Positions 1 through 17,971 of a DNA stretch of 36,104 bases are shown here, piece after piece. The stretch is from Acidobacteriota bacterium. GTDB lineage: Bacteria; Acidobacteriota; Aminicenantia; UBA2199. Location of the stretch: positions 1 to 36,104 of the forward strand of contig JAUPLE010000969.1 in NCBI GenBank assembly GCA_030837085.1, in the 5' to 3' direction. Under the pieces are notes generated by a model, which saw only the letters and a list, made by a program, of their open reading frames with translations, ran no database searches and was not told the DNA's origin. Both the position numbers and the translations under genes were made by a program. Each line of letters starts with the position of its first letter. Position 1 is the stretch's first letter.

Positions 1-1464
1 AATGTACCATTGGCAGAAATATTCAAAACTCCCACAATCCTGGGATTATCAAGTTTTATTACAGCATCGGTCAAAGAGAGGTATATTTCGATAGAGCCCG
101 TTGAAAAGAAAGAATATTATGACTTGTCTTTTGCCCAAAGAAGATTATATATCCTGGATAAAACAGAAACATCCATCGATACGGCATATAACCTCCCCGA
201 GGTAATGTTAGTCGAAGGAGAACTTGATATACAGCGCTTTGAAGATACCTTTAATAAGTTACTAAAAAGGTATGACAGCTTTCGAACTTCCTTTGATATC
301 AAAAACGGAAAGCCAGTTCAGGTAATTCATCGTAATGTTGCCTTTGAAATTACATACATCTCAGCGGAAGACCAACTCCCAATAAGTGAATCGTTAAATC
401 AAACGATAAAAAACTTTATAAGACCTTTTGATTTGAGTAAAGCGCCGCTGCTAAGGACTGCAGTTGTCCATTTAAGCAGAAGAGAACATTTTTTGTTGTT
501 CGACATGCATCATATAATCGCAGATGGTGTTTCAATGGGCATTCTAGTTCGGAATTTTGTGAATTTATATGAAGGAAATAAATTACCTGCGTTAAAATTG
601 CAATATATAGATTTCGCAGGATGGCAAAATAAAATGTTTAAATGCGGACAAATGAAAAAGCAGGAAGAGTATTGGCTGAAAAAATTTAACGGGGATATCC
701 CAGTTTTGAATATGCCAACTGATTATCCCCGGCAATTGGAGAAAAGTTTTGCGGGAAATATTGTGACAACTGAAATCGATATACCATTAACGGATAAAAT
801 AAAAACGGTAATTTTGGAAACAGGAAATACTTTATATATCGTTTTATTGACAGTTTTAAATATATTATTATCCAAATATACAGGACAGGATGATATTATC
901 GTCGGATGCCCTACGGCCGGGAGAAATCACGAAGATTTAGAAAATATTATCGGTATGTTTGTAAATACATTAGCAATGAGGAATTATCTTCGAAGAGGAA
1001 TGACTGCCGGTGATTTTCTGGCAGAGGTGAAAAAAAATGCTTTGCAGGCTTTTGAAAACCAGGATTATCCATTCGAAGAATTGGTTAGTCAACTGAAGAT
1101 CGTCCAAAATCATACTCGAAATCCTTTATTTGATATATTGTTTGTATCTGAAAAGCTGGATATCCCGAAATTGGAGCTTGAAGATTTAACGTTTACACCT
1201 TATCAATTTGAATACAAAATATCTCATATGGACTTGGTATTTTATATCAAGGAAATTGAAGGGAAAATAGAATTGAAATTGGAATACGCGACAGCTTTGT
1301 TTAAGAAGCCGGGAGTGGCGGGCATGTTGAAACATTATCTGGAGATTCTTGAACAAGTGATTGATAATGTAAATATCAAATTAGAGGAGATCAAAATAAG
1401 CCATGAGTTTCTGGCGCCGCAGTCCAATATACTTAAGGAAAACCAGGATGGGTTTGGGTTTTGA
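1..1464 (+). CDS. NRPS C-terminal fragment: T (end)-C; 5' truncated
   Basis: The reading frame is open from the first base, so the true start lies upstream; the TTG at 10 is inside a domain. The first ~20 residues (VPLAEIFKTPTI) are the last helices of a peptidyl carrier (T) domain. A complete condensation (C) domain follows from about nt 85, with the opening pattern YYDLSFAQRRLY, the catalytic HHIIADG (second His codon at 511-513), and the later motifs VGCPTAGR, IGMFVNTLAMR and NQDYPFEEL. C domains join the donor peptide on the upstream T to the amino acid on the downstream T. All canonical catalytic residues are present, so it is probably active. The protein stops straight after the C domain (EIKISHEFL) with a short tail ending GFGF, a pattern shared with the two other C-terminal C proteins here. 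Its partner is presumably the next gene, 49 bp downstream. Confidence 0.93.
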   Translation, partial: NVPLAEIFKTPTILGLSSFITASVKERYISIEPVEKKEYYDLSFAQRRLYILDKTETSIDTAYNLPEVMLVEGELDIQRFEDTFNKLLKRYDSFRTSFDIKNGKPVQVIHRNVAFEITYISAEDQLPISESLNQTIKNFIRPFDLSKAPLLRTAVVHLSRREHFLLFDMHHIIADGVSMGILVRNFVNLYEGNKLPALKLQYIDFAGWQNKMFKCGQMKKQEEYWLKKFNGDIPVLNMPTDYPRQLEKSFAGNIVTTEIDIPLTDKIKTVILETGNTLYIVLLTVLNILLSKYTGQDDIIVGCPTAGRNHEDLENIIGMFVNTLAMRNYLRRGMTAGDFLAEVKKNALQAFENQDYPFEELVSQLKIVQNHTRNPLFDILFVSEKLDIPKLELEDLTFTPYQFEYKISHMDLVFYIKEIEGKIELKLEYATALFKKPGVAGMLKHYLEILEQVIDNVNIKLEEIKISHEFLAPQSNILKENQDGFGF

Positions 1465-1513
1465 GAAAAATGGCCCAGTGACCCGTGCCTAATCGAATAA
1501 ATGGAGTATTTAA

Positions 1514-4500
1514 ATGAAAAATGAGATTGATAATATAAAGACAGCTGCAGCAGCAGAACAATTCACCAGGGAACGGAATTATTGGCTGAATCGATTCGCC
1601 GATGAATTTGAGAAAACTTATTTTCCATATGATTTCCTGCATACAGGAGTTCACGGAGTTTACCCGAATGAACGAAAGATGGAATCGGTAAAATTTAGTT
1701 TTCCAGGGGACCTTTCTTCACGGTTGATTAAGCTGAGTAACCGTTTCGATCCCCGATTACATGTGATATTGGTGACGGGGTTAATATTAATACTTCATAA
1801 ATATACGGGCAATGGCGATATCATTGTCGGCGCTCCTATTTATATACAGGATAAAGAAGGAGAATTGATTAATACCGTACTAGCACTAAGAAATCGATTG
1901 GAAAACGAGATGACTTTTAAACAGCTTTTATTGCAAGTCAATGAAACTATTGTCGAAGCTGTGGATCATCAAAATTACCCGGTTGAACGGTTGGTACAGA
2001 AGTTAAATTTCCCGGGAAAAAGCAGCGGCTTTCCATTATTTGATGCGGCGATTTTGCTGGGGAATTGCCATAATGAGAAATACCTGGACCATATAAATCA
2101 TAATATGACATTTTCTTTACTTAGAATTGCTGAAGAGATTGAAGGTAAGCTTAAATACAATTCATTATTGTACAGTAAAGCCACTAGCCAACGGATAATC
2201 AAACATTTAATCCATCTCCTCGAACAAGCAGTTTTTAGAGTTGATACCCCAATCGCCGATATTGACGTATTGCCTGCCGATGAGAAACACAAACTATTGG
2301 TGGAATTTAATAATAATACCCAAGTTGAATACCCCCGGCAAAAAACCATTCAGCAATTATTTGAAGAACAAGTAGAACGAACGCCGGATCACACTGCCGT
2401 TTTTGGTCAAACGGTCCAGTCGGTCAGTTTAACTTATCGAAAATTAAATGAGCAGTCAAATCAATTGGCGCGAATGTTAATAAAAAAAGGCGTTAGACAA
2501 GAATCAGTCGTTGGGATTATGATAGACCCCTCACTGGAAATGGTGATTGGATTGATCGCCATATTAAAAGCCGGCGGTGCTTATTTACCGATTGATCCCG
2601 GCCTGCCTCCAAATCGCGTGCTTTTCATGTTGAATAATTCAGGAGCATTGGTGGTATTGACCGATAGTCATTCAATGAAGGATATATCTTTCACCCAATT
2701 TCAAAGGTTTGAAGAAAATAAAGATATTCCTATTCACATGACAGCCCCACGTCCCCCTATAGCCGAATTTGGGATCCTCCCGGCCCCGGATCGTTCCCAT
2801 ATTAACCTGCTCAACTACAAAAACAAGATCGGTATGGCCAGTGTGACCAATTGTATCTCCATTCAAACGACCCGCGGCTGCCCTTATGAATGTCTCTATT
2901 GCCATAAAATATGGTCTAAAAAACATGTTCACCGGGATGCGGAAAGTATTTATGGTGAAATCAACTATTTTTATAAAAATGGAGTTACTAACTTCGCTAT
3001 TATTGATGATTGTTTTAATCTTAATACACGGGAGAGCAGCAAGTTATTTGAACTGCTCATTAAAAACAAATTAAAAATCCAGTTATTTTTTCCCAATGGT
3101 TTACGGGGAGATATCATGACTCCGGGTTATATTGATTTGATGGTGGAAGCAGGTACGCGTGGTATTAATCTATCATTGGAGACAGCATCGCCCAGGCTGC
3201 AAAAACTGCTCAAGAAAAATTTGAACCTGGACAAATTTAAAGAAGTAGTGAATTACATTGCCGCAGCCCATTCTAATATTATCCTTGAAATGGCCACCAT
3301 GCACGGATTCCCGTCGGAAACAGAAGAAGAAGCCATGATGACTCTCAATTTTATCAAAGATATTAAATGGCTGCATTTCCCATATATTCATATATTAAAA
3401 ATATTTCCCAATACTGAAATGGAAGCGTTTGCACTAGAACAAGGCGTATCAAAACAAGACATCATGCAGTCAAAAAATCGCGCTTTCCATGAGTTACCCG
3501 AGACACTACCGTTCCCTAAAAGTTTTACCCGCAAATACCAGGCCGGATTCTTAAATGAATATTTCCTGGCGAAAGAAAGACTAAAAAATGTATTACCGGT
3601 GCAAATGAATATCTTAAGCGAAGCCGCATTAACACAGAAATACAATGCTTACCTCCCAGTTGAAATCAAATCCATTCGAGATGTGATCGAGTTTTCCGGT
3701 GTGGAAGGAGTGGAAATCCCGGTTGATTATGGTCGAGAGGAAAACAGACTCTCCATATTCGATCGGTTCCCGGTAAATCGCACTTTAATACAGGGGGCGC
3801 GACGTATATTATTCTTGGATCTATCCCAACATTTCAGCTCCCACCAAATGCTTTATCGTGTGGTCGAACAACCGCTGGGAGCCATGTACCTCCTGACTTA
3901 CCTTAAACAACAATTTGGAGACCGTATCGATGGAAGAATTTATAAATCCGGCAATGATTTCGACAATTTTGAAGAACTGAGAAAGATCGTTCACGATTTT
4001 CAACCGCAACTGATTGGGATTCGCACATTAACGTTTTTTAAAGATTTTTTCCATGAAACAGCAGCGTTGATCCGACACTGGGGAATTACATGCCCGATTA
4101 TAACCGGGGGCCCCTACGCATCCAGTGATTATGATACTATATTAAAAGATAAAAATATCGACTTGGTGGTTTTGGGTGAAGGCGAATATACACTGGTTGA
4201 ATTGATAACAGAAATGATGAAAAATGATTTCAAACTGCCGCCTTCCTCTGTTATGGCCGGTATAAAAGGTATTGTTTATGCCGAAAAAGTCTATGCTGAG
4301 AATTTTAGTATTAATGAAATTCAGCGCCAGGTAATTTTAATGGATGGATATGACCATATCCTCTCTGGCCAATCCTGCCAAAACCCGGAATCCGTTGCCA
4401 GTGGAAATAATCTTGCCTATGTCATGTATACCTCTGGCACAACGGGAATGCCCAAAGGTGTAATGGTAGAGCACCAGCAAGTCAACAATTGTATTCATTG

Positions 4501-6892
4501 GATGCAGGAAAAGTTTCAACTAACAAATAAAGATTCGATTGCCCAGCGTACCAATTTAATGTTTGACCCTTCGGTTTGGGAAATCTTTTGGCCGTTATAT
4601 GTCGGCGCAAAAGTAAAACTTTTAACCCGGCAGCAAGGGCGCGACGCGGAGTATTTACTCCATTTAATGGCAGATGATCGCAATGTAACCGTACTTTATT
4701 GCCCATCGCCGTTATTGACGGCAATAACGTACTTACTAAACCAGGCCGATAAGAAATCCCGGTTAAAATTAACATGGCTCATTATTGGTGCGGAATCCAT
4801 CCGGCCTGAAGTAATAAAAGATTTTTATTCTTACTACGAAGGGAAAATCGTTAACACCTATGGCCCCACGGAAGGCACCATAAACAACACCTATTATGAT
4901 ATCCACCGGTCGGATAAGTGTTCCATTGTTCCTATCGGAAAGCCAGTTGCCAATAATCAAATATATATCCTTTCGCCGGATATGAAACCCCAGCCAATGA
5001 TGGTGGCTGGGGAAATCCATATCGGGGGTGACAGCGTTGCCAGGGGGTATATTAATAATAGGGAGAAAACAGACCTATATTTTATTGCCAATCCGTTTGG
5101 GGAAGGGAAATTATATAAAACCGGCGATATCGGTAGATGGTGGCCTGATGGTGTAATCGAAATCATGGGCCGGGTGGATGAACAAATAAAGATCAGGGGC
5201 TACCGAATGGAACCCGGGGAAATACGGTCTGCCCTGCTAGGTCATAAGGCCATTAAGGATTGTATCATTACCGTTGTCGATAATAAGGAGTCGGAATCGC
5301 ATAACGAAGATTTCAAGACCTGTAAATCTTGCGGCATCACAACCCAATATCCCAGGGTAACCATTAATGATGATAACCTTTGCGAAATATGCAAAGAGAT
5401 ATTGAAATACCAATCGACTCTTCAAGCATATTTTAAAACCCTGGGGGAATTGGAGCAAACCATTCGAAATCTTAACAAAACAAAAACCGGCATATACGAT
5501 TGCCTTTTGTTATACAGCGGCGGCCGTGGGGCCGCGAATGCACTTTATAAATTGCATGACATGGGTTTCAAAATACTAACCGCAACCTATGATAATGGTT
5601 ACATGGGAAAAGCAGATATTGCCAATATAAAAATGATTACGTCCAAATTGAATGTGGATCATGTCATATTGACCCATAAAAACACCGACAACATACTCAG
5701 AGAAAGTTTGAAAACCGCCCATACGGTTTGCCGGGGGTGTTTTCTTACATCATCTTCCCTGGCTGCTGAATATGCCTATAAGAACAGCATTAACGTGGTG
5801 GTGGGTGCTACCTTGTCCCGCGGCCAAATTATCGATAGTAAATTGTTTATGTTCCTTCAGCAGGGAATTACCGATATAAATGAATTTGAGGCAACAGTCT
5901 CCAGGTTCCAGCAGGATATTCCTAAAATAGAGAAATCCTATTTTGACTTAATCGATATCGAGGCTGTGAAAGATGGAAGTGTGCATAAAAAAGTAACCTC
6001 ATTGGATTTTTACCGTTATTGCGAAATGACCAATGAAGAAATGATTTCTTACTTAAATGAAAGAGACCCTTATTGGAAAACCAGGAAATCATATGCTGTA
6101 TATTCCACCAATTGCCCTATCAAGCAAATTGGGGATTACGCACATTTGCAAGAAAGAGGATTTCATTTTTATGGACCACCTACCAGTTGGGAAAAACGCT
6201 TGGGGCATTTGGCGTTAAAAAATATCAAAGAAGACCTGGAGTGCCGTATGACGCCCAAGGGCTTCGCTAATTTCTTAAAGCGCGTCCAATATGACCGTAC
6301 CGAAAAAGAAAACAAAACGGATAAATATTTATGCGCCTATTTTATTCCCGACAAGCCTTCCACGGAAGGCGAATATTCAGCATCCGAATTAAGAAATTAT
6401 TTATTACAAACATTGCCCGAGTATATGATCCCCCATTATTTCGTTCCAATAGAGAAAATTCCTTTGACTACCAATGGGAAAGTGGATAGAAAAGCATTGC
6501 CATCCCCGAAATTATCCCGGTTAAAATTGGACGTGACCTATGTCGCCCCGGCTACCCAATTGGAAAAAACCATTTCGGAAACCTGGAAAGAATTACTGGG
6601 TGTGGATAGGGTAGGCGTTCAGGATAATTTTTTTGACCTGGGCGGAAATTCACTCAATATCGTTATGATGGAACATAAATTAAAAGAAGCCCTTAATATA
6701 GATATCCCGGTGGTAACACTGTTTACTTATCCCACCATTAGTTCTTTGACAAAGTACCTTGAGGAAGAAAAAAATCGGGAGACGATCTCTGCGTCGCCTG
6801 CTTCTGCCGGTAAAGCAGATCGGTCTATTGTAATTAATGAGGGTAAAAATATGATGAAACGCACCTTAGAAAAAATTGAGCAAAGGAAATAA
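1514..6892 (+). CDS. NRPS ½C-A-T with radical SAM/B12 and PP-loop units inserted in the A domain
   Basis: 1792 aa, far above the usual size of a single A-T module. Residues ~18-265 are only the C-terminal lobe of a C domain (RNYWLNRF, VGAPIYIQ, INTVLALRNR, HQNYPVERL); the HHxxxDG lobe is absent. The A domain has A1 at ~306, A2 LKAGGAYLPIDP at ~351, A3 LAYVMYTSGTTG at 967, A4 FDPSVWE at 1017, A5 NTYGPTE at ~1114, A7 YKTGDI at ~1201, A8 at 1219-1236, A9 LPEYMIP at ~1634 and A10 NGKVDR at 1654. About 570 extra residues lie between A2 and A3 and about 340 between A8 and A9 (see separate entries). The specificity code read by hand is D-P-W-Y-I-G-T-I-N-K; I cannot match it to a substrate. T has its phosphopantetheine Ser at 1713 (LGGNSL). 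A charged C-terminal helix probably docks to the next PKS. ATG 1514 is chosen because GGAG lies 7 nt upstream. Confidence 0.93.
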   Translation: MKNEIDNIKTAAAAEQFTRERNYWLNRFADEFEKTYFPYDFLHTGVHGVYPNERKMESVKFSFPGDLSSRLIKLSNRFDPRLHVILVTGLILILHKYTGNGDIIVGAPIYIQDKEGELINTVLALRNRLENEMTFKQLLLQVNETIVEAVDHQNYPVERLVQKLNFPGKSSGFPLFDAAILLGNCHNEKYLDHINHNMTFSLLRIAEEIEGKLKYNSLLYSKATSQRIIKHLIHLLEQAVFRVDTPIADIDVLPADEKHKLLVEFNNNTQVEYPRQKTIQQLFEEQVERTPDHTAVFGQTVQSVSLTYRKLNEQSNQLARMLIKKGVRQESVVGIMIDPSLEMVIGLIAILKAGGAYLPIDPGLPPNRVLFMLNNSGALVVLTDSHSMKDISFTQFQRFEENKDIPIHMTAPRPPIAEFGILPAPDRSHINLLNYKNKIGMASVTNCISIQTTRGCPYECLYCHKIWSKKHVHRDAESIYGEINYFYKNGVTNFAIIDDCFNLNTRESSKLFELLIKNKLKIQLFFPNGLRGDIMTPGYIDLMVEAGTRGINLSLETASPRLQKLLKKNLNLDKFKEVVNYIAAAHSNIILEMATMHGFPSETEEEAMMTLNFIKDIKWLHFPYIHILKIFPNTEMEAFALEQGVSKQDIMQSKNRAFHELPETLPFPKSFTRKYQAGFLNEYFLAKERLKNVLPVQMNILSEAALTQKYNAYLPVEIKSIRDVIEFSGVEGVEIPVDYGREENRLSIFDRFPVNRTLIQGARRILFLDLSQHFSSHQMLYRVVEQPLGAMYLLTYLKQQFGDRIDGRIYKSGNDFDNFEELRKIVHDFQPQLIGIRTLTFFKDFFHETAALIRHWGITCPIITGGPYASSDYDTILKDKNIDLVVLGEGEYTLVELITEMMKNDFKLPPSSVMAGIKGIVYAEKVYAENFSINEIQRQVILMDGYDHILSGQSCQNPESVASGNNLAYVMYTSGTTGMPKGVMVEHQQVNNCIHWMQEKFQLTNKDSIAQRTNLMFDPSVWEIFWPLYVGAKVKLLTRQQGRDAEYLLHLMADDRNVTVLYCPSPLLTAITYLLNQADKKSRLKLTWLIIGAESIRPEVIKDFYSYYEGKIVNTYGPTEGTINNTYYDIHRSDKCSIVPIGKPVANNQIYILSPDMKPQPMMVAGEIHIGGDSVARGYINNREKTDLYFIANPFGEGKLYKTGDIGRWWPDGVIEIMGRVDEQIKIRGYRMEPGEIRSALLGHKAIKDCIITVVDNKESESHNEDFKTCKSCGITTQYPRVTINDDNLCEICKEILKYQSTLQAYFKTLGELEQTIRNLNKTKTGIYDCLLLYSGGRGAANALYKLHDMGFKILTATYDNGYMGKADIANIKMITSKLNVDHVILTHKNTDNILRESLKTAHTVCRGCFLTSSSLAAEYAYKNSINVVVGATLSRGQIIDSKLFMFLQQGITDINEFEATVSRFQQDIPKIEKSYFDLIDIEAVKDGSVHKKVTSLDFYRYCEMTNEEMISYLNERDPYWKTRKSYAVYSTNCPIKQIGDYAHLQERGFHFYGPPTSWEKRLGHLALKNIKEDLECRMTPKGFANFLKRVQYDRTEKENKTDKYLCAYFIPDKPSTEGEYSASELRNYLLQTLPEYMIPHYFVPIEKIPLTTNGKVDRKALPSPKLSRLKLDVTYVAPATQLEKTISETWKELLGVDRVGVQDNFFDLGGNSLNIVMMEHKLKEALNIDIPVVTLFTYPTISSLTKYLEEEKNRETISASPASAGKADRSIVINEGKNMMKRTLEKIEQRK
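2670..4386 (+). other. Radical SAM + B12-binding insertion between A2 and A3
   Basis: Residues ~386-958 of the gene 2 protein. The 4Fe-4S motif C456-x3-C460-x2-C463 (GCPYECLYC) sits in the usual TTRGCP context, followed by typical radical SAM strands (FAIIDDCFNLN, GINLSLETASPR, HGFPSETEEEAM). From ~763 a cobalamin-binding Rossmann-like domain follows: RRILFLDLS, PLGAMYLLTYL, PQLIGIRTL, PIITGGPYAS, VVLGEGEYTLVEL. Family knowledge: class B radical SAM enzymes use B12 to methylate unactivated carbon or phosphorus, or to drive ring chemistry. Here B12 follows the radical SAM core, the reverse of the usual order. Inference: it modifies the amino acid activated or tethered by this module. Flanking A-domain sequence resumes cleanly, so this is a true insertion and not a gene fusion at an end. 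Confidence 0.88.
5297..6313 (+). other. Zinc-ribbon/PP-loop (N-acetyl sugar amidotransferase-like) insertion between A8 and A9
   Basis: Residues ~1262-1600 of the gene 2 protein. It opens with a C1270-x2-C1273 ... C1290-x2-C1293 ribbon (CKSCG, CEICK), then YDCLLLYSGGRGAANALY, where a PP-loop ATPase would read SGGxDS. The following strands (ILTATYDNGYM, LNVDHVILTH), C1406-RG-C1409 and VVGATLSRGQ resemble the WbpG/PseA-type amidotransferase and ATP-pyrophosphatase superfamily. The PP-loop Asp and last Ser are replaced by Gly1339 and Ala1340, so ATP pyrophosphatase chemistry may be lost or altered. The A domain resumes at DKYLCAYFIPDK (~1603). Superfamily assignment is moderately firm; function is unknown. 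Confidence 0.72.
6882..6887 (+). promoter_or_regulatory. Ribosome binding site fixing the gene 3 start
   Basis: AAAGGA lies inside the last codons of gene 2, 6 nt before ATG 6894. This favours ATG 6894 over the in-frame TTG at 6876, which would overlap gene 2 by 17 bp and has no comparable purine-rich site. Confidence 0.6.
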
Positions 6893-6893
6893 T

Positions 6894-9800
6894 ATGAAAG
6901 AAACATCGTTAACAGGATTGGAAATAGCAGTTATCGGTATGATATGCCGATTTCCAGGGGCCAATAATATCGATGAATTCTGGGATAATTTAAAAAATGG
7001 GGTTGAATCGATATCATTTTTTTCCGATGAAGAATTAATCGAAGTAGGCATTGCACCGGGATTATTAAAAGACCCAATATATATAAAAGCAAAGGGAATC
7101 ATTGACGACAAGGAAGCGCTTTCTTTTGATTCCGATTTTTTTGATTATTATCCAAAGGAAGCCGCCATCTTGAATCCCCAGGTACGACTCCTTCATGAAT
7201 GCGCCTGGGAAGCATTGGAAATGGCCGGTTATGTTCCCGGATATTATAATGGCTTAATTGGGTTGTATATCGGTGCCACCAATAGCACAATGTGGGAAAT
7301 GCAAACTTATTTATCCGCAAGTGAGAGCGATGCACCATTGGATAGTCTATCAATCTATGCCTTAGCGGATAAAGATTTTTTAAGCACGCGTCTTTCGTAT
7401 AAACTCAATTTAAAAGGCCCGGCTGTAAATATGCAAACGGCCTGTTCGACCTCATTGGTTACAATTCACAACGCCTGCCGGGCGTTATTGACGGGAGAAT
7501 GCGATATGGCATTAGCCGGGGGGGCGACAGTCAATATCCCACAAAAAAGCGGCTATATTTATACAAAAGAAATGATTTTCTCACCGGATGGCCACTGCAG
7601 GGCTTTTGATGCTAAAGCTAAGGGAACCGTCGGTGGCAATGGGGTCGGTATTGTCGTATTAAAACGGTTGAATAACGCGATTGCCGATGGTGATGAAATA
7701 TACGCCCTAATAAAAGGTTCGGCGATTAACAACGACGGGAATAGGAAAGTCGGTTATACGGCTCCTAGCGTTGAAGGGCAGATGGAAGTTATTAAAGCGG
7801 CCCAGCAGATGGCAGAGGTTGAATTTGAAAGTATAACCTATATCGAGGCCCATGGAACTGGAACTCCACTCGGTGACCCTGTTGAAATCGAAGCCTTAAA
7901 AAAAGCATTTAATACAGGAAAGAAAAGGTTTTGTGCTGTTGGCTCTGTTAAAACCAATGTCGGTCACCTGGACAGCGCTGCCGGGGTCGCAGGATTTATC
8001 AAAACCGTATTGGCTTTAAAAAATAAACAAATCCCTCCCAGCTTACATTATGAAACCCCAAACCCGAAGATTGATTTCGATAATAGCCCATTTTATGTAA
8101 ATGCGACTTTGCAAGCATGGCAAAATGATGTTTATCCTTTGCGAGCTGGTGTGAGTTCCTTCGGAATCGGCGGAACCAATGCGCACGTGATATTGGAAGA
8201 AGCGCCGAAAAATTTTAATAAAACCGGTTCGACGCCTTTACGGTCAAACAAACTTATCCTGGTTTCTGCCAAATCTGAACCTATTCTTAACCGAATGATA
8301 AGGAACCTGGGACAATTTTTTCAAAAAAATCCTAATATCAATCTTGATAACGTCGCTTATACATTACAGGTCGGCCGAAGTTCTTTTAAATACAGGAAAA
8401 TGTTCGTTTGTTCCACCCTGGATGAGGCGGTGAATATTTTATCAGCACCCGATTCTGATAAAATCCACTCCTTCTATGTCAAAGAAGAAATCCGGCCTGT
8501 CATTTTTATGTTCCCGGGCCAGGGGGCTCAGTATGTAAATATGGGTTTGGATATTTACCATGAAGAATTACTATTCAAAGAAATATTGGACCATTGTTTC
8601 GACATTTTGAATAAGCGGATGGGCTTGAATTTGAAAACAATTCTTTATCCTGAAGAAGGAGAAAACGCTACGGTAGATATAGAAGCAATAAACCGGACGG
8701 AAATCACCCAGCCGCTGATATTTATAATCGAATATGCCTTAGCCCGATTGTTGATGAAGTGGGGAATAAAACCGCACGCCATGATCGGTCACAGTATTGG
8801 TGAATATGTGGCGGCCTGTTTAGCCGGTGTTTTTTCTCTTGAAGATGCATTAGAGATTGTAGCATTAAGGGGCCGTTTCATGCAGCAAATGCCTTGCGGT
8901 GCCATGCTGGGTGTGCAAATACCAACCGACGAAATAAATACATTTTTGACCACTGAAATAGAATTGGCAGCAGTAAATGGGGCCTTATTTTGTGTTGTTT
9001 CCGGCCCTACCGGGGCGATTAACCAATTTAAAATAACAATGAAAGAAAAAGGATATAAAACCACTCCACTTCACACCTCTCACGCCTTTCATTCCAATAT
9101 GATGGAACCTATTTTGAAAGATTTCGCAAAAGAACTGGCTAAATTTGCTTTAAATAAACCTGGAATACCTTATATATCAAATTTAACCGGCACCTGGATT
9201 ACTATTGAAGATGCTGTAAATCCAGCGTATTGGTCAATGCATTTACGGCGAACCGTAAAATTTTCCGCTGGACTCAATGAATTACTTAAGGTTGACAATT
9301 CGATTTTTATCGAGGTCGGACCGGGAACAACATTAAGCACCTTTGTACGCCACCATCCCGCCAAAACCAATGAACATCAATCCATAAATCTGATAAGACA
9401 CCCACAGGAAAATATACCGGATGCACGGTATTTACTCCATAAATTAGGACAATTATGGTTCTATGGAAAGAAAATCGATTGGCTAGGTTTCTATGGTGAA
9501 GAAAAAAGAAACCGTATCCCATTACCCACATATCCATTCCAGCGGCGGCAATACCCATTCAAGGCAAAATCTTTTCAATCGATTTTGCAAGCTAATACCG
9601 ATGTTTCATCAATTCAAAAAAAAGATGACATCTCCAAGTGGTTTTATATCCCGGTTTGGGAGAAGTCCATTTACTCTATGCCGGTGGTTCCCGTTGAAAC
9701 ATCCTCTGTTGAAACAGCCCTGCCTCTGACATTCCTGGTATTCATGGATATTGAAGGTTGGTGTTTGCCATTGGTGCAGCAATTGTCAGAGAAAGGACAC

Positions 9801-12620
9801 CGTGTGATTTTGGTAAAAATCGGGACAGGCCAGATTGGATATAAAAAAGATAGTGAAAAACTATTTTTTATCAACCCAGAAGAGGAAAATGATTATAGAA
9901 ATTTATTCAAGGAACTCCGAGAGATGGGCAAACTTCCCGATCGGATTCTTCATTTTTGGAGTATTTCTTCCACAGCGCATCCCCTGGAATGCCCAGGAGA
10001 TATCGAGCGACTCCAGAATTTGGGATATTACAGTTTAACCGGTATTGCCAGGGCCATAGGAAATGAAGCCGCCGCTGATAAAATCCAGATAAAAGTGTTT
10101 ACTAACAATATATTTTCAGTAACAGGCGAGGAAGAATTGCATCCCTGGAATGCAACTGTTTTAGGACCTGTTAAAGTAATTCCTTTAGAGTATCCCAACA
10201 TCGATTGCTCCATTATTGACATCAGCCTCCCAACTCCAGGGATGGATAAAAAGGATAAAGAAGAAAAACTAATGCACTTGTTAGCAATTGAATCGGTTAG
10301 CAATGGCACTGATGTTGTTGTTGCCATACGCAGTGGTTTCCGCTGTCGGCAAATGTTTAAAACAATGCCTTTCGACATGAGTGAAATTGAAAGTACGCGG
10401 CCGCCGCGCCGATTACGTGAGCAGGGGGTTTACCTTATCACTGGCGGCCTGGGAGGTATAGGACTTACGTTGGCTGGACGCCTAGCAAAAACTGTTAAAG
10501 CCCGGCTGATATTAGTTGGACGTTCTCCGTTCCCTGCAAGGCAAGAATGGGGCAACCTATTAAAATTAAATTTGCAGAACTATGAAAATGAAAATAAAAC
10601 CGGACATAAAAAAGAAAAAAATATTGTACATAAAATCCGAAAATTATTGGAACTGGAGGAAAATGGGGCACAGATTTTAATAAAGGATGCAGATATTGCC
10701 AATTCCCAGCAGATGCGAGATATAATCGAACAGGCTGAGTGGCAATACGGCCCGGTAAATGGAATTATCCATTCCGCCGGCATTCCCGATGGGGCGATCA
10801 TTCAACGAAGTACCCGGGCCATGTCGGAATCAATATTTAACGCTAAAATAAAAGGAACTCAGGTTCTCGACTTGATATTCAAAGATAAATCCCTGGATTT
10901 TTTCATTATATGTTCTTCGTTAAATTCACTTATTCCAACTTTTGGCCAAGCAGCCTATTGTTCGGCCAATGCCTTTATTGATGCCTTTGCATATTATAAA
11001 AATACCCGGGATGGCATATTTACGGCATCTATTAATTGGGACGCCTGGGAAGAAATTGGAATGTCGTTTGAAGCAAGGCAGCGCTCGGAAATTTATCCAA
11101 ATTCCCGGACCGTTTCCACACCGCATCCTTTTGTTGAAAAATGTATCAGCGAAGATACCGCTGATGTATATATTGGGAACCTGGGCGTAAGGAAAAATTG
11201 GGCGCTGGATGAACACCGGATTTTCGATAAGGCTACGTTTCCCGGTACCGCTTACGTGGAAATGATAAGGGCAGTCTTCCAGGCACATGTGGGCGATGTT
11301 CCGATGGAAATCAAAGATATTTATTTCCTCCAGCCCCTGGTAATGGAAGACGATGAAGAACGGGAAGTACGAACCATTCTGAAAAAGAATGAGCAGGGCT
11401 TTGAATTTTTTATTACCAGTCGTGCACCGGCAGCTAAAGATAAATTATTAGAGCATGCCAGGGGAAAAATTGACTACTTACAAGACAATACTCAAACCCG
11501 GCATTCTCTCCATGAAATTGAAGTTTTATGCAGCGAAAAGGAAGTCAATCTTCCGCCAGGAATAGCAGATGAAGGAGAAAAGTATTTAAAATTCGGCCCC
11601 AGGTGGAATATTGGCAAGCAGGTGAAACAGGGGATAGGTCAGGCATTAATAGTACTGGAATTGCCGGGGGAATTTGGCGCTGATTTGAATACCTATAAAT
11701 TACACCCAGCGCTTCTGGATAATGCTCTTGCTGGAACATTCGGTGCCGGGTCATATTACCTCCCCTTTTCCTACAAAAAAGTAAAAATAAGGAAACCCTT
11801 TACGTCAAAAATATTCAGTTACATCAGGTTAAAGGAAAATAAAGAATCTCCGAAAGAATTTAAGCATTTTAGTGTCATCCTTATGGATGGAGAAGGCAAT
11901 GAATTGGTAAATATCAGTGAATATACGTTAATGCAAGTTCCCATTGAGAGAATTCAAATGCGTGATATTTCAGACTCATCATCTCCGATGCGTCCTACGG
12001 ATTTTGCGAATGAAAGGGAACCGGGTTTTGATCGGAAAGAAAATACAGAAATATCATATGGAATAAAACCGGCAGAAGGAGTGGAAATTTTTGAACGTAT
12101 TTTGGCGGAAACGTATCCTCATCCCCAGGTGGTCATATCAACCATCGATTTTGATGCCCGCGTAGATCATATGAAGAAATTAAACATCCTGGGGAGAAAC
12201 GAAACGGATGAAGAAAAAACGTTAACTAATATCCCACTTATTTCACAGCAACGCCCCGAGTTATCCACCCGTTATGTAGAACCGTCAACTGGTATGGAAA
12301 AAAAGATAGCCGATATATTTCAAAAATTCATGGGAATTAAAGAGATCGGTATTAATGATAATTTTTTTGAATTGGGGGCTAATTCTCTCATGATGGTCCA
12401 GTTAAATAGCCAACTGGAAAAAGCCATTGAAAAAGAAGTTTCCATTGTAACCATATACGCTCACCCCACCATAAAAGACTTGGCCCGATTCTTAAGTAAT
12501 GAAAAACAAAGTCCGGCTGATTCTGAAGAGGAAGTCGAATCGATGAAGCAGAAGATAGAAAAAGGAAAAAGTAAATTAGATCAAAGAAAGCAGCGAAATA
12601 AAGGTATGAGAAATGACTGA
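6894..12620 (+). CDS. Type I PKS module: KS-AT-KR[DH]KR'-ACP
   Basis: 1908 aa from ATG 6894. KS (from ~8) has the TACSTS Cys184, HGTGT His320 and NVGH His358, all intact. AT starts at FPGQG (~540) with active Ser634 in GHSIGEY and HAFH at 730-733, the pattern known for malonyl-CoA. A structural KR half (~940-1150) leads to the NADPH loop GGLGGIG (~1182), HSAGIPDG and catalytic Tyr1355 (AAYCSANAF). A DH-like domain follows (~1410-1685), then a short segment YGIKPAEGVEIF...PQVVIST (~1721-1760) that in gene 8 directly follows the KR. ACP Ser1831 lies in ELGANSL. The C-terminus is a very basic/charged helix, as in gene 2. Predicted role: add one C2 unit, reduce the ketone and possibly dehydrate it. 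The gene 2 T domain should feed it. There is 1 bp between the gene 2 stop and this start, and an 8 bp overlap with gene 4. Confidence 0.93.
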   Translation: MKETSLTGLEIAVIGMICRFPGANNIDEFWDNLKNGVESISFFSDEELIEVGIAPGLLKDPIYIKAKGIIDDKEALSFDSDFFDYYPKEAAILNPQVRLLHECAWEALEMAGYVPGYYNGLIGLYIGATNSTMWEMQTYLSASESDAPLDSLSIYALADKDFLSTRLSYKLNLKGPAVNMQTACSTSLVTIHNACRALLTGECDMALAGGATVNIPQKSGYIYTKEMIFSPDGHCRAFDAKAKGTVGGNGVGIVVLKRLNNAIADGDEIYALIKGSAINNDGNRKVGYTAPSVEGQMEVIKAAQQMAEVEFESITYIEAHGTGTPLGDPVEIEALKKAFNTGKKRFCAVGSVKTNVGHLDSAAGVAGFIKTVLALKNKQIPPSLHYETPNPKIDFDNSPFYVNATLQAWQNDVYPLRAGVSSFGIGGTNAHVILEEAPKNFNKTGSTPLRSNKLILVSAKSEPILNRMIRNLGQFFQKNPNINLDNVAYTLQVGRSSFKYRKMFVCSTLDEAVNILSAPDSDKIHSFYVKEEIRPVIFMFPGQGAQYVNMGLDIYHEELLFKEILDHCFDILNKRMGLNLKTILYPEEGENATVDIEAINRTEITQPLIFIIEYALARLLMKWGIKPHAMIGHSIGEYVAACLAGVFSLEDALEIVALRGRFMQQMPCGAMLGVQIPTDEINTFLTTEIELAAVNGALFCVVSGPTGAINQFKITMKEKGYKTTPLHTSHAFHSNMMEPILKDFAKELAKFALNKPGIPYISNLTGTWITIEDAVNPAYWSMHLRRTVKFSAGLNELLKVDNSIFIEVGPGTTLSTFVRHHPAKTNEHQSINLIRHPQENIPDARYLLHKLGQLWFYGKKIDWLGFYGEEKRNRIPLPTYPFQRRQYPFKAKSFQSILQANTDVSSIQKKDDISKWFYIPVWEKSIYSMPVVPVETSSVETALPLTFLVFMDIEGWCLPLVQQLSEKGHRVILVKIGTGQIGYKKDSEKLFFINPEEENDYRNLFKELREMGKLPDRILHFWSISSTAHPLECPGDIERLQNLGYYSLTGIARAIGNEAAADKIQIKVFTNNIFSVTGEEELHPWNATVLGPVKVIPLEYPNIDCSIIDISLPTPGMDKKDKEEKLMHLLAIESVSNGTDVVVAIRSGFRCRQMFKTMPFDMSEIESTRPPRRLREQGVYLITGGLGGIGLTLAGRLAKTVKARLILVGRSPFPARQEWGNLLKLNLQNYENENKTGHKKEKNIVHKIRKLLELEENGAQILIKDADIANSQQMRDIIEQAEWQYGPVNGIIHSAGIPDGAIIQRSTRAMSESIFNAKIKGTQVLDLIFKDKSLDFFIICSSLNSLIPTFGQAAYCSANAFIDAFAYYKNTRDGIFTASINWDAWEEIGMSFEARQRSEIYPNSRTVSTPHPFVEKCISEDTADVYIGNLGVRKNWALDEHRIFDKATFPGTAYVEMIRAVFQAHVGDVPMEIKDIYFLQPLVMEDDEEREVRTILKKNEQGFEFFITSRAPAAKDKLLEHARGKIDYLQDNTQTRHSLHEIEVLCSEKEVNLPPGIADEGEKYLKFGPRWNIGKQVKQGIGQALIVLELPGEFGADLNTYKLHPALLDNALAGTFGAGSYYLPFSYKKVKIRKPFTSKIFSYIRLKENKESPKEFKHFSVILMDGEGNELVNISEYTLMQVPIERIQMRDISDSSSPMRPTDFANEREPGFDRKENTEISYGIKPAEGVEIFERILAETYPHPQVVISTIDFDARVDHMKKLNILGRNETDEEKTLTNIPLISQQRPELSTRYVEPSTGMEKKIADIFQKFMGIKEIGINDNFFELGANSLMMVQLNSQLEKAIEKEVSIVTIYAHPTIKDLARFLSNEKQSPADSEEEVESMKQKIEKGKSKLDQRKQRNKGMRND
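11120..11945 (+). other. DH-like domain nested after the KR core
   Basis: Starts at HPFVEK and carries LDEHRIFDKATFPG with His1441, matching HxxxGxxxxP except that Gly is Asp. FGPRW stands where YGPxF is expected, and HPALLDNAL carries Asp1609 but Ala where the DxxxQ/H motif has Gln or His. The His/Asp dyad is present, so dehydration is possible but not assured. Canonical modules place DH before KR; here it splits the KR core from its usual C-terminal extension. Confidence 0.75.
12601..12604 (+). promoter_or_regulatory. Ribosome binding site for gene 4
   Basis: AAGG 8 nt before ATG 12613, located within the last codons of gene 3. The start and stop overlap as ATGACTGA, which fits translational coupling. 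Confidence 0.45.
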
Positions 12621-17032: not shown

Positions 17033-17971
17033 ATGAGCAAAATGATATTTATGTTTCCCGGTGTGGGTTCTCACTATATAGGAATGGGAAAATTTTTTTA
17101 TGATAATTTTAAAATAGCCGGGGAAATCTTCGAGGAAGCAAGCGATGCGTTAAAGATAGATTTTGCCCGGTTGTGTTTTTCGGAAGAAAGTAAGAAGGAG
17201 TTGAACACGCTGGAGAATGCACAGGTGGCATTGGTGACCGTAAGTACCGCAGCGTACCGCGTGTACATGGAGGAAGTGGGCAGCGAACCCCTTTACTGCC
17301 TGGGGCACAGCCTGGGGGAGTATTCCGCGTTGTGCGCTGCCGGCGTCATGCGGTTCACCGATGCATTGGAAATCGTTCGCAGCCGGGGAGTCATTCTAAA
17401 CAGGGCGGCGTCTTCCATGAACGGCATGATGGCCTGGGTGATTAACCTGGATTATCGAATCACTGAAAGAATATGCGCAGACCATGCCGGGCAGGGATGC
17501 GAAGTTTTCGTATCCGCCTACGATTCGCAAGTGCAGTCAACCATCTCCGGTTTTCGGGACACAGTAATGCGTGTAGGAAGAAAGCTGGAAAAGGAAGGTG
17601 CCATTGTCTATCCGCTGCAGTTGAGTGGGCCGTTTCACTGTCCCATGATGAACGAAGCTGCTTTGGTCATGGAGAATATACTCCGACAGTATATATTCTT
17701 TGATGCGCGTTTCCCGGTCGTTGCCAATCAAAACGCACAGTGTTACGACGGGATTGAAAGTATTGCCCGTAATTTATCTCTCCAGTTGGTTCGACCAATC
17801 CGTTGGCGAGATTCCATTCAGTACCTGGTAGACCAGGGAATTAAAATCGCAATTGAAATGGGTCCGGATAAGGTATTAAAACATCTAATGAAAAATAACA
17901 CAGATTCCATTCGCGTTTATTCCTTCGCTGTCGGAACCGACCTGGAATTAGTTAAGCATCATTTGTTGTAA
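17033..17971 (+). CDS. Stand-alone acyltransferase (FabD/trans-AT family)
   Basis: 312 aa, a normal length for a discrete malonyl-CoA:ACP transacylase-type enzyme. The fold is covered end to end: FPGVGSHYIGMG at the N-terminus, nucleophile Ser93 in GHSLGEYSALCAAGV, and catalytic His202 in SGPFHCPMM, then RPIRWRDSI and IEMGPDKVL. Family knowledge: discrete ATs load malonyl units onto AT-less carrier domains, while a related branch (acyl hydrolases of trans-AT systems) removes stalled acyl chains; GPFH-type motifs occur among both, so I cannot separate them. The PKS modules here already have their own AT, which makes proofreading or service to another carrier (for example the A-less T of gene 6) worth considering. 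Much of the gene is visibly GC-richer than its neighbours (39 of 60 G/C at 17281-17340), which may mark a separate origin. Confidence 0.88.
   Translation: MSKMIFMFPGVGSHYIGMGKFFYDNFKIAGEIFEEASDALKIDFARLCFSEESKKELNTLENAQVALVTVSTAAYRVYMEEVGSEPLYCLGHSLGEYSALCAAGVMRFTDALEIVRSRGVILNRAASSMNGMMAWVINLDYRITERICADHAGQGCEVFVSAYDSQVQSTISGFRDTVMRVGRKLEKEGAIVYPLQLSGPFHCPMMNEAALVMENILRQYIFFDARFPVVANQNAQCYDGIESIARNLSLQLVRPIRWRDSIQYLVDQGIKIAIEMGPDKVLKHLMKNNTDSIRVYSFAVGTDLELVKHHLL

Follow-up and report, generated by a model that had tools for sequence, protein, structure and literature searches.

A nonribosomal peptide synthetase adenylation domain interrupted twice, by a radical SAM/B12 unit and by an AMDH-like PP-loop domain, in an Acidobacteriota genome

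Can a single adenylation (A) domain of a nonribosomal peptide synthetase (NRPS) hold two unrelated enzyme folds, and what would such a module do to the amino acid that it loads? The question is raised by an open reading frame (ORF) of 1792 codons without interruption, located at positions 1514-6892 of a stretch of 36,104 nucleotides of contig JAUPLE010000969.1 (Acidobacteriota bacterium, assembly GCA_030837085.1), the whole of which is called here the window. The encoded A domain retains the complete set of core motifs A1-A10 and contains in-frame inserts at two sites. Insert 1, between A2 and A3, is a radical S-adenosylmethionine (SAM) domain followed by a B12-binding domain, and insert 2, between A8 and A9, is a PP-loop domain similar to the AMDH domains of other NRPSs. 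The original prediction, made from the letters alone, had described one A domain with all motifs readable and interrupted by two different folds; motif search, Pfam and NCBIfam bear this out.

The A2 motif lies at amino acid (aa) 351, A3 at 972, A8 at 1219, A9 at 1634 and A10 at 1654, followed by the carrier motif at 1708 (pattern search). About 610 aa separate the end of A2 from the start of A3, and A8 and A9 are about 396 aa apart, as compared with about 49 aa in the three ordinary A domains of the window; the wide gaps had first been put at ~570 and ~340 residues. The radical SAM and B12 unit accounts for ~530 aa and the PP-loop unit for ~345 aa. Pfam matches the A domain in two stretches within the ORF, and embedded in it are Radical_SAM (aa 450-614, E 9e-19) and B12-binding (PF02310, aa 785-897, E 7e-10, 39 bits versus a cut-off of 32). 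By Pfam and NCBIfam, neither insert belongs to the types described in interrupted A domains (methyltransferase, oxidase, monooxygenase, ketoreductase), which are not a strict requirement for this class. The features of the module and its two neighbours are the following.

1514-6892, + strand: whole ORF, 1792 aa, with half condensation (C) domain, A1/A2, radical SAM, B12, A3-A8, PP-loop (AMDH-like), A9/A10 and peptidyl carrier protein (PCP), in this order (ORF list; Pfam; motif positions)
1538-2299, + strand: C-terminal half of a condensation domain, aa 9-262 (PF00668, profile positions 183-456 only)
2306-2698, + strand: N-terminal part of the A domain with A1 and A2, aa 265-395 (motifs; hidden Markov model (HMM) match at aa 267-390)
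2741-3583, + strand: insert 1a, radical SAM domain, aa 410-690 (PF04055; family HMM; orthologue identity)
2879-2902, + strand: CxxxCxxC [4Fe-4S]/SAM motif CPYECLYC, aa 456-463 (pattern search; insert alignment)
3800-4285, + strand: insert 1b, B12-binding domain, aa 763-924, C-terminal to the radical SAM domain (PF02310; order compared with stand-alone relatives; rotation test)
4382-5287, + strand: A domain core A3-A8, aa 957-1258, code DPWYIGTIN (code extraction; motifs; same code type in all orthologues)
5300-6289, + strand: insert 2, PP-loop domain like AMDH and N-acetyl sugar amidotransferase (NASAT), aa 1263-1592 (TIGR03573; profile match to PDB entry 8WEX; tree)
5321-5392, + strand: Zn tetracysteine motif CxxC..[GN]xCxxC of insert 2, aa 1270-1293 (pattern search; motif defined in PMC10607449)
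5516-5533, + strand: degenerate PP-loop SGGRGA replacing SGGKDS, aa 1335-1340 (alignment)
6311-6523, + strand: C-terminal part of the A domain with A9 and A10, aa 1600-1670, A10 Lys kept (motif search)
6539-6778, + strand: PCP/thiolation domain, aa 1676-1755, motif DLGGNSL (PF00550; motif search)
10-1464, + strand: upstream gene with a full condensation domain, at the contig edge (Pfam)
6876-12620, + strand: downstream gene, a polyketide synthase (PKS) module KS-AT-KR-DH-ACP (Pfam; synteny)

The double architecture is shared, together with the code, by copies in two related Candidatus Aminicenantes genomes, G007 (contig C27) and G003 (contig C657), and in a third genome, G006, the copy is split over contigs C683 and C371. 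A search for other doubly interrupted A domains had been proposed as a check. Identity to the window copy is 78% for insert 1 and 68% for insert 2 in G007, and 71% and 50%, respectively, in G003. When compared domain by domain between orthologues, identity is 84/81/67% for radical SAM and 70/51/52% for PP-loop, so that the radical SAM domain is the most conserved part (81-84% in the two closest orthologues). The gene directly downstream of the double module is a homologous PKS gene in the window, G007 and G003. Nonsynonymous divergence (dN) is low in nearly every domain, synonymous divergence (dS) is mostly saturated, and all double-module copies have an open reading frame. The doubly interrupted locus is real and conserved, and no artefact.

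Insert 1 is the part whose interest extends furthest. The three cluster cysteines of its CxxxCxxC motif are invariant across 27 aligned inserts. In all A-embedded copies examined the radical SAM domain precedes the B12 domain, which reverses the usual arrangement, in which the B12 domain comes ahead of the radical SAM core; the stand-alone relatives in which both domains are detected have B12 first. Once rotated, stand-alone enzymes align over nearly the whole of insert 1, with scores of 396-496 versus 311-391 in native order. Judged from these alignments, insert 1 corresponds to stand-alone B12-radical SAM enzymes in circularly permuted form, and an enzyme opened between its two domains would suit fitting into a loop. 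The literature searched contains no description of a radical SAM/B12 insert at A2-A3, and such a setting looks new for these enzymes.

Sixty-three matches to insert 1, some of them fragments, are present in 7 of the 60 relatives searched, all of one family, and 24 of them belong to G003. The search finds none in the remaining 53 relatives, and a profile run against 347 genomes of the phylum (346 besides the window's own) yields nothing comparable. Among the matches listed, the named public records with the insert-1 architecture are Candidatus Aminicenantes (L098, L099). One insert-1 copy (L060, G007:C813) contains an internal TAA stop, due either to disruption of this copy or to an error in sequencing. 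Among the closest stand-alone relatives, locus L100 (positions 1-9655) displays seven B12-radical SAM frames in tandem, one of which is cut at the locus end. The neighbourhood of these closest stand-alone relatives offers no consistent hint of a pathway.

The most novel part of the finding accordingly exceeds the locus itself and is the presence of a permuted B12-radical SAM cassette in dozens of A domains of differing specificity. The A domains that bear it have codes of the Pro, Ile, Leu, Thr and Glu types, besides several without an assigned type. The meanings of the codes are the standard Stachelhaus assignments, some of which are given in PMC12283262. On a tree of the A3-A8 cores of 57 A domains, the cores cluster by pocket code, and interrupted cores are interspersed among ordinary ones; at least 10 changes between the two states are required, 8 of them forced by starred branches, as compared with a mean of 18.5 after shuffling. 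Because interrupted and ordinary cores intermix by code, the cassette acts like a shuffled tailoring unit that would not be bound to one side chain, and its reaction should therefore target something common, such as Cα or Cβ.

A separate class consists of Pro-like A domains in which the pocket Asp is replaced by Cys (code CVQ[YF][IV]AHVV; L036, ORF residues 1525-2976, and L037, L085, L090, L091, L097, L098). In 7 of 7 such modules there follows a radical SAM-B12 unit that lacks an A3-A8 part of its own, and one PCP is shared; in several, an A1-A2 remnant stands ahead of the radical SAM-B12 unit.

Insert 2 matches the NCBIfam family of WbuX and N-acetyl sugar amidotransferases (TIGR03573, E 2e-20, 73 bits, below the cut-off of 203), and its profile matches the sole solved member, 8WEX (E 8e-9). 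The tetracysteine CXXCXn[GN]XCXXC is present at aa 1270-1293, with the cysteines kept across the double copies. The PP-loop signature is instead lost in 4 of 4 double copies, being SGGRGA in the window, G007 and G006 and ACERVA in G003, so that insert 2 contains neither the SGGXDS motif of NASAT nor the SGGKD motif of AMDH. Its host, with the code DPWYIGTIN, also differs from the Asn-specific A domains in which AMDH is found. A domains interrupted by a PP-loop unit only have codes for Asn (DLTK[IV]GEVG, in one case DLTLIGEVG) or of the Gln/Glu type (DAQ[DG]IGVVD), and the A-embedded relatives with a readable loop carry SGGKDS. In the PP-loop tree the double-insert copies form a single, long-branched clade (100/100), which may group with the embedded relatives, apart from the stand-alone ones (support 83/68). 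Judged by insertion site, size, motif and association with Asn, as PMC7966384 describes them, insert 2 matches the AMDH kind of CysH and AlbIV. With dN of 0.21-0.43 and saturated dS, and with the PP-loop signature lost, selection has retained the domain but not its loop.

PP-loop A domains are present in several Acidobacteriota families and on Roseovarius and Streptomyces plasmids. Those of the AMDH type are widespread (L033, L066, L067, L070, L187-L191, and the plasmid loci L193 and L194); their codes, where read, are of the Asn or the Gln/Glu type. On the Streptomyces plasmid the annotated PP-loop gene begins just before the PP-loop domain, and for this reason the A domain seems divided between two genes; asnB and a racemase adjoin. 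In L187, L188, L189 and L191 a stand-alone A domain with the code CFFSLA[AV]VC (Cys at the first code position) adjoins the Asn/PP-loop module. A search for AMDH in viral contigs gave no match, and the insert-2 profile found one match, in a 376-aa frame, among 331 Myxococcota genomes, a sample to which CysH itself does not belong. Loading of Asn and nitrile formation as in CysH fit these other PP-loop A domains and are ruled out for the window copy by its code and lost PP-loop.

Structure prediction, another check proposed at the outset, gives an answer for one half of the protein. The AlphaFold model of A1-A8 with insert 1 (pLDDT 78, pTM 0.76) aligns with A-domain cores, e.g., 5n81 and 7ywk, over ~955 columns, with a TM-score of ~0.73 on the target and through insert 1. 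The root-mean-square deviation of 8-10 in these alignments is attributed to a low-confidence tail. Since the model aligns with A-domain cores, the two parts of the A domain can pack around insert 1.

What, then, would the module do? The interpretation that is favoured, tentatively, is that of one NRPS module whose twice-interrupted A domain would load an amino acid other than Asn (code DPWY[IV]GT[IV]N) onto the following PCP. The radical SAM/B12 unit would act on the carrier-bound residue, probably as a C-methylase and most likely by transfer of the methyl group of methylcobalamin to an sp3 carbon (Cβ or Cα). The AMDH-like domain, presumably repurposed and probably not cleaving ATP, would serve as a scaffold, a substrate-binding or a partner-docking element, and the module would hand over to the next PKS module. 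The A motifs, the A10 Lys, the radical SAM cluster motif and the PCP motif are all intact. C-methylation by a B12-radical SAM enzyme has been reported for the discodermin NRPS cluster (PMC12858407). As regards docking, CysH from which AMDH had been deleted also no longer supported O-methylation by its partner CysQ (PMC7966384).

Several observations weigh against this interpretation. The code, which had been read correctly at the start as D-P-W-Y-I-G-T-I-N-K and is of the same type in the orthologues, finds no match in one open code survey. Insert 1 reaches no NCBIfam equivalog cut-off, its best score being to the PhpK family (93 bits versus 600), and its stand-alone relatives score equally well with the non-methylase BchE; methylation is for these reasons drawn from the wider superfamily. 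SGG is kept in 3 of 4 double copies, and residual ATP binding is possible. The model of the PP-loop half, built on few sequences, is poor (pLDDT 54) and was not used. The original proposal that the module selects, activates and chemically remodels its amino acid is supported in part; remodelling by the PP-loop unit is unsupported because SGGKDS is lost and the code is not that of Asn in the window copy and the orthologues.

A somewhat less probable account is that the radical SAM/B12 unit does not methylate and performs instead oxidation, cyclisation, carbon-carbon bond formation or epimerisation. The closest stand-alone relatives, which match BchE as well as methylases, are in keeping with it, as is the use of the cassette on chemically different residues; the general prevalence of methylases among characterised enzymes of this kind argues the other way. 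As for epimerisation, a weak look at the His motifs gave no sign of it: the C domains have one type of His motif whether they follow a radical SAM module or an ordinary one, and none of the E type was observed.

It is unlikely that both inserts are catalytic, with the radical SAM/B12 unit functionalising the residue and the PP-loop unit activating a side-chain amide (to a nitrile, an amidine or a rearranged amide) to give a doubly modified amino acid. Purifying selection on both domains and the conserved Zn motif would agree with this, and so would the Asn or Gln codes of the A domains that host SGGKDS-keeping relatives, AMDH chemistry being proven for CysH (PMC7966384). Nevertheless, SGGKDS is lost in every double copy, entirely so in G003, and the A code is neither Asn nor Gln. 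More doubtful still is a wider proposal, according to which the permuted B12-radical SAM enzyme would be a mobile, substrate-agnostic NRPS subdomain for radical C-H chemistry on carrier-bound residues, paired here with a descendant, of new, ATP-independent or altered chemistry, of an amide-activating enzyme, and the amino acid would be doubly remodelled. That the inserts are inert passengers of a decaying gene is suggested by the degenerate PP-loop signature and is very improbable in view of the open frame in all double copies, the low dN with saturated dS and the intact catalytic motifs of the A, radical SAM and PCP domains. An assembly chimera, considered because the source is a fragmented metagenome assembly of 1045 contigs, is ruled out by the same architecture and code in the independent assemblies G007 and G003, the consistent halves in G006 and the homologous PKS gene next to the module in two of them.

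Some features of the surroundings deserve mention. The ORF begins with the C-terminal half of a condensation domain only (1538-2299), though the preceding gene already has a full one, and many interrupted modules in relatives likewise begin ~260 aa before A1. A free-standing malonyl-transferase-like gene (window 17033-17971) is located amid PKS modules that already contain AT domains.

If the favoured interpretation is true, radical C-H chemistry inside the loading domain would allow residue-by-residue modification of the scaffold during assembly, without separate enzymes, and a cassette working in many A-domain specificities would lend itself directly to engineering. The permuted order also illustrates a way in which a two-domain enzyme may come to be accommodated in a loop, and the degenerate AMDH domain poses the testable question of whether an embedded tailoring domain can turn into a scaffold.

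Natural A domains with two interruptions, by methyltransferases at a2-a3 and at a6-a7, were reportedly described by Lundy in 2020. Both insertion sites of the window module are, as the original prediction stated, known for methyltransferases, at a2-a3 in TioN and MarQ and at a8-a9 in TioS and KtzH (PMC11355689). The window module resembles these proteins in its two sites and in placing tailoring beside loading, and differs from them because its inserts are not SAM-dependent methyltransferase folds. The A-domain inserts in the literature searched are methyltransferases, oxidases, monooxygenases and reductases only, and the a2-a3 and a8-a9 double is an engineered one (PMC11355689). The novelty claimed for a natural radical SAM/B12 and PP-loop double agrees with this, except that a PP-loop domain at A8-A9 is already known as AMDH (PMC7966384). 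In the cystobactamid synthetase CysH, a 38 kDa AMDH domain with the SGGKD motif is found in an Asn-activating module and makes β-cyanoalanine or isoasparagine, and homologues occur in AlbIV (albicidin) and in many Asn-specific A domains (PMC7966384). As described there, insert 2 has in common with them a domain of the ~38 kDa type inserted in an A domain, from a family with SGGKD; the window copy departs from them in its SGGRGA, its non-Asn code and its second, unrelated insert. With the NASAT enzymes WbpG, WbuX and LpNASAT (8WEX; PMC10607449), insert 2 shares the fold family, by sequence profile, and the tetracysteine Zn motif, whereas it is embedded in an A domain and has lost the PP-loop SGGXDS. 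The CxxxCxxC core and the B12-binding domain of insert 1 are those of the B12-radical SAM enzymes BchE, ApyD, PhpK, the ladderane-type enzymes and DscE, in contrast to which insert 1 is permuted, embedded at A2-A3 and below every curated cut-off. DscE, which belongs to the discodermin NRPS cluster, was prepared and assayed with the completed peptide as substrate (PMC12858407). It provides a parallel for B12-radical SAM C-methylation tied to a nonribosomal peptide, with the difference that DscE is a stand-alone enzyme and insert 1 is embedded in the NRPS module.
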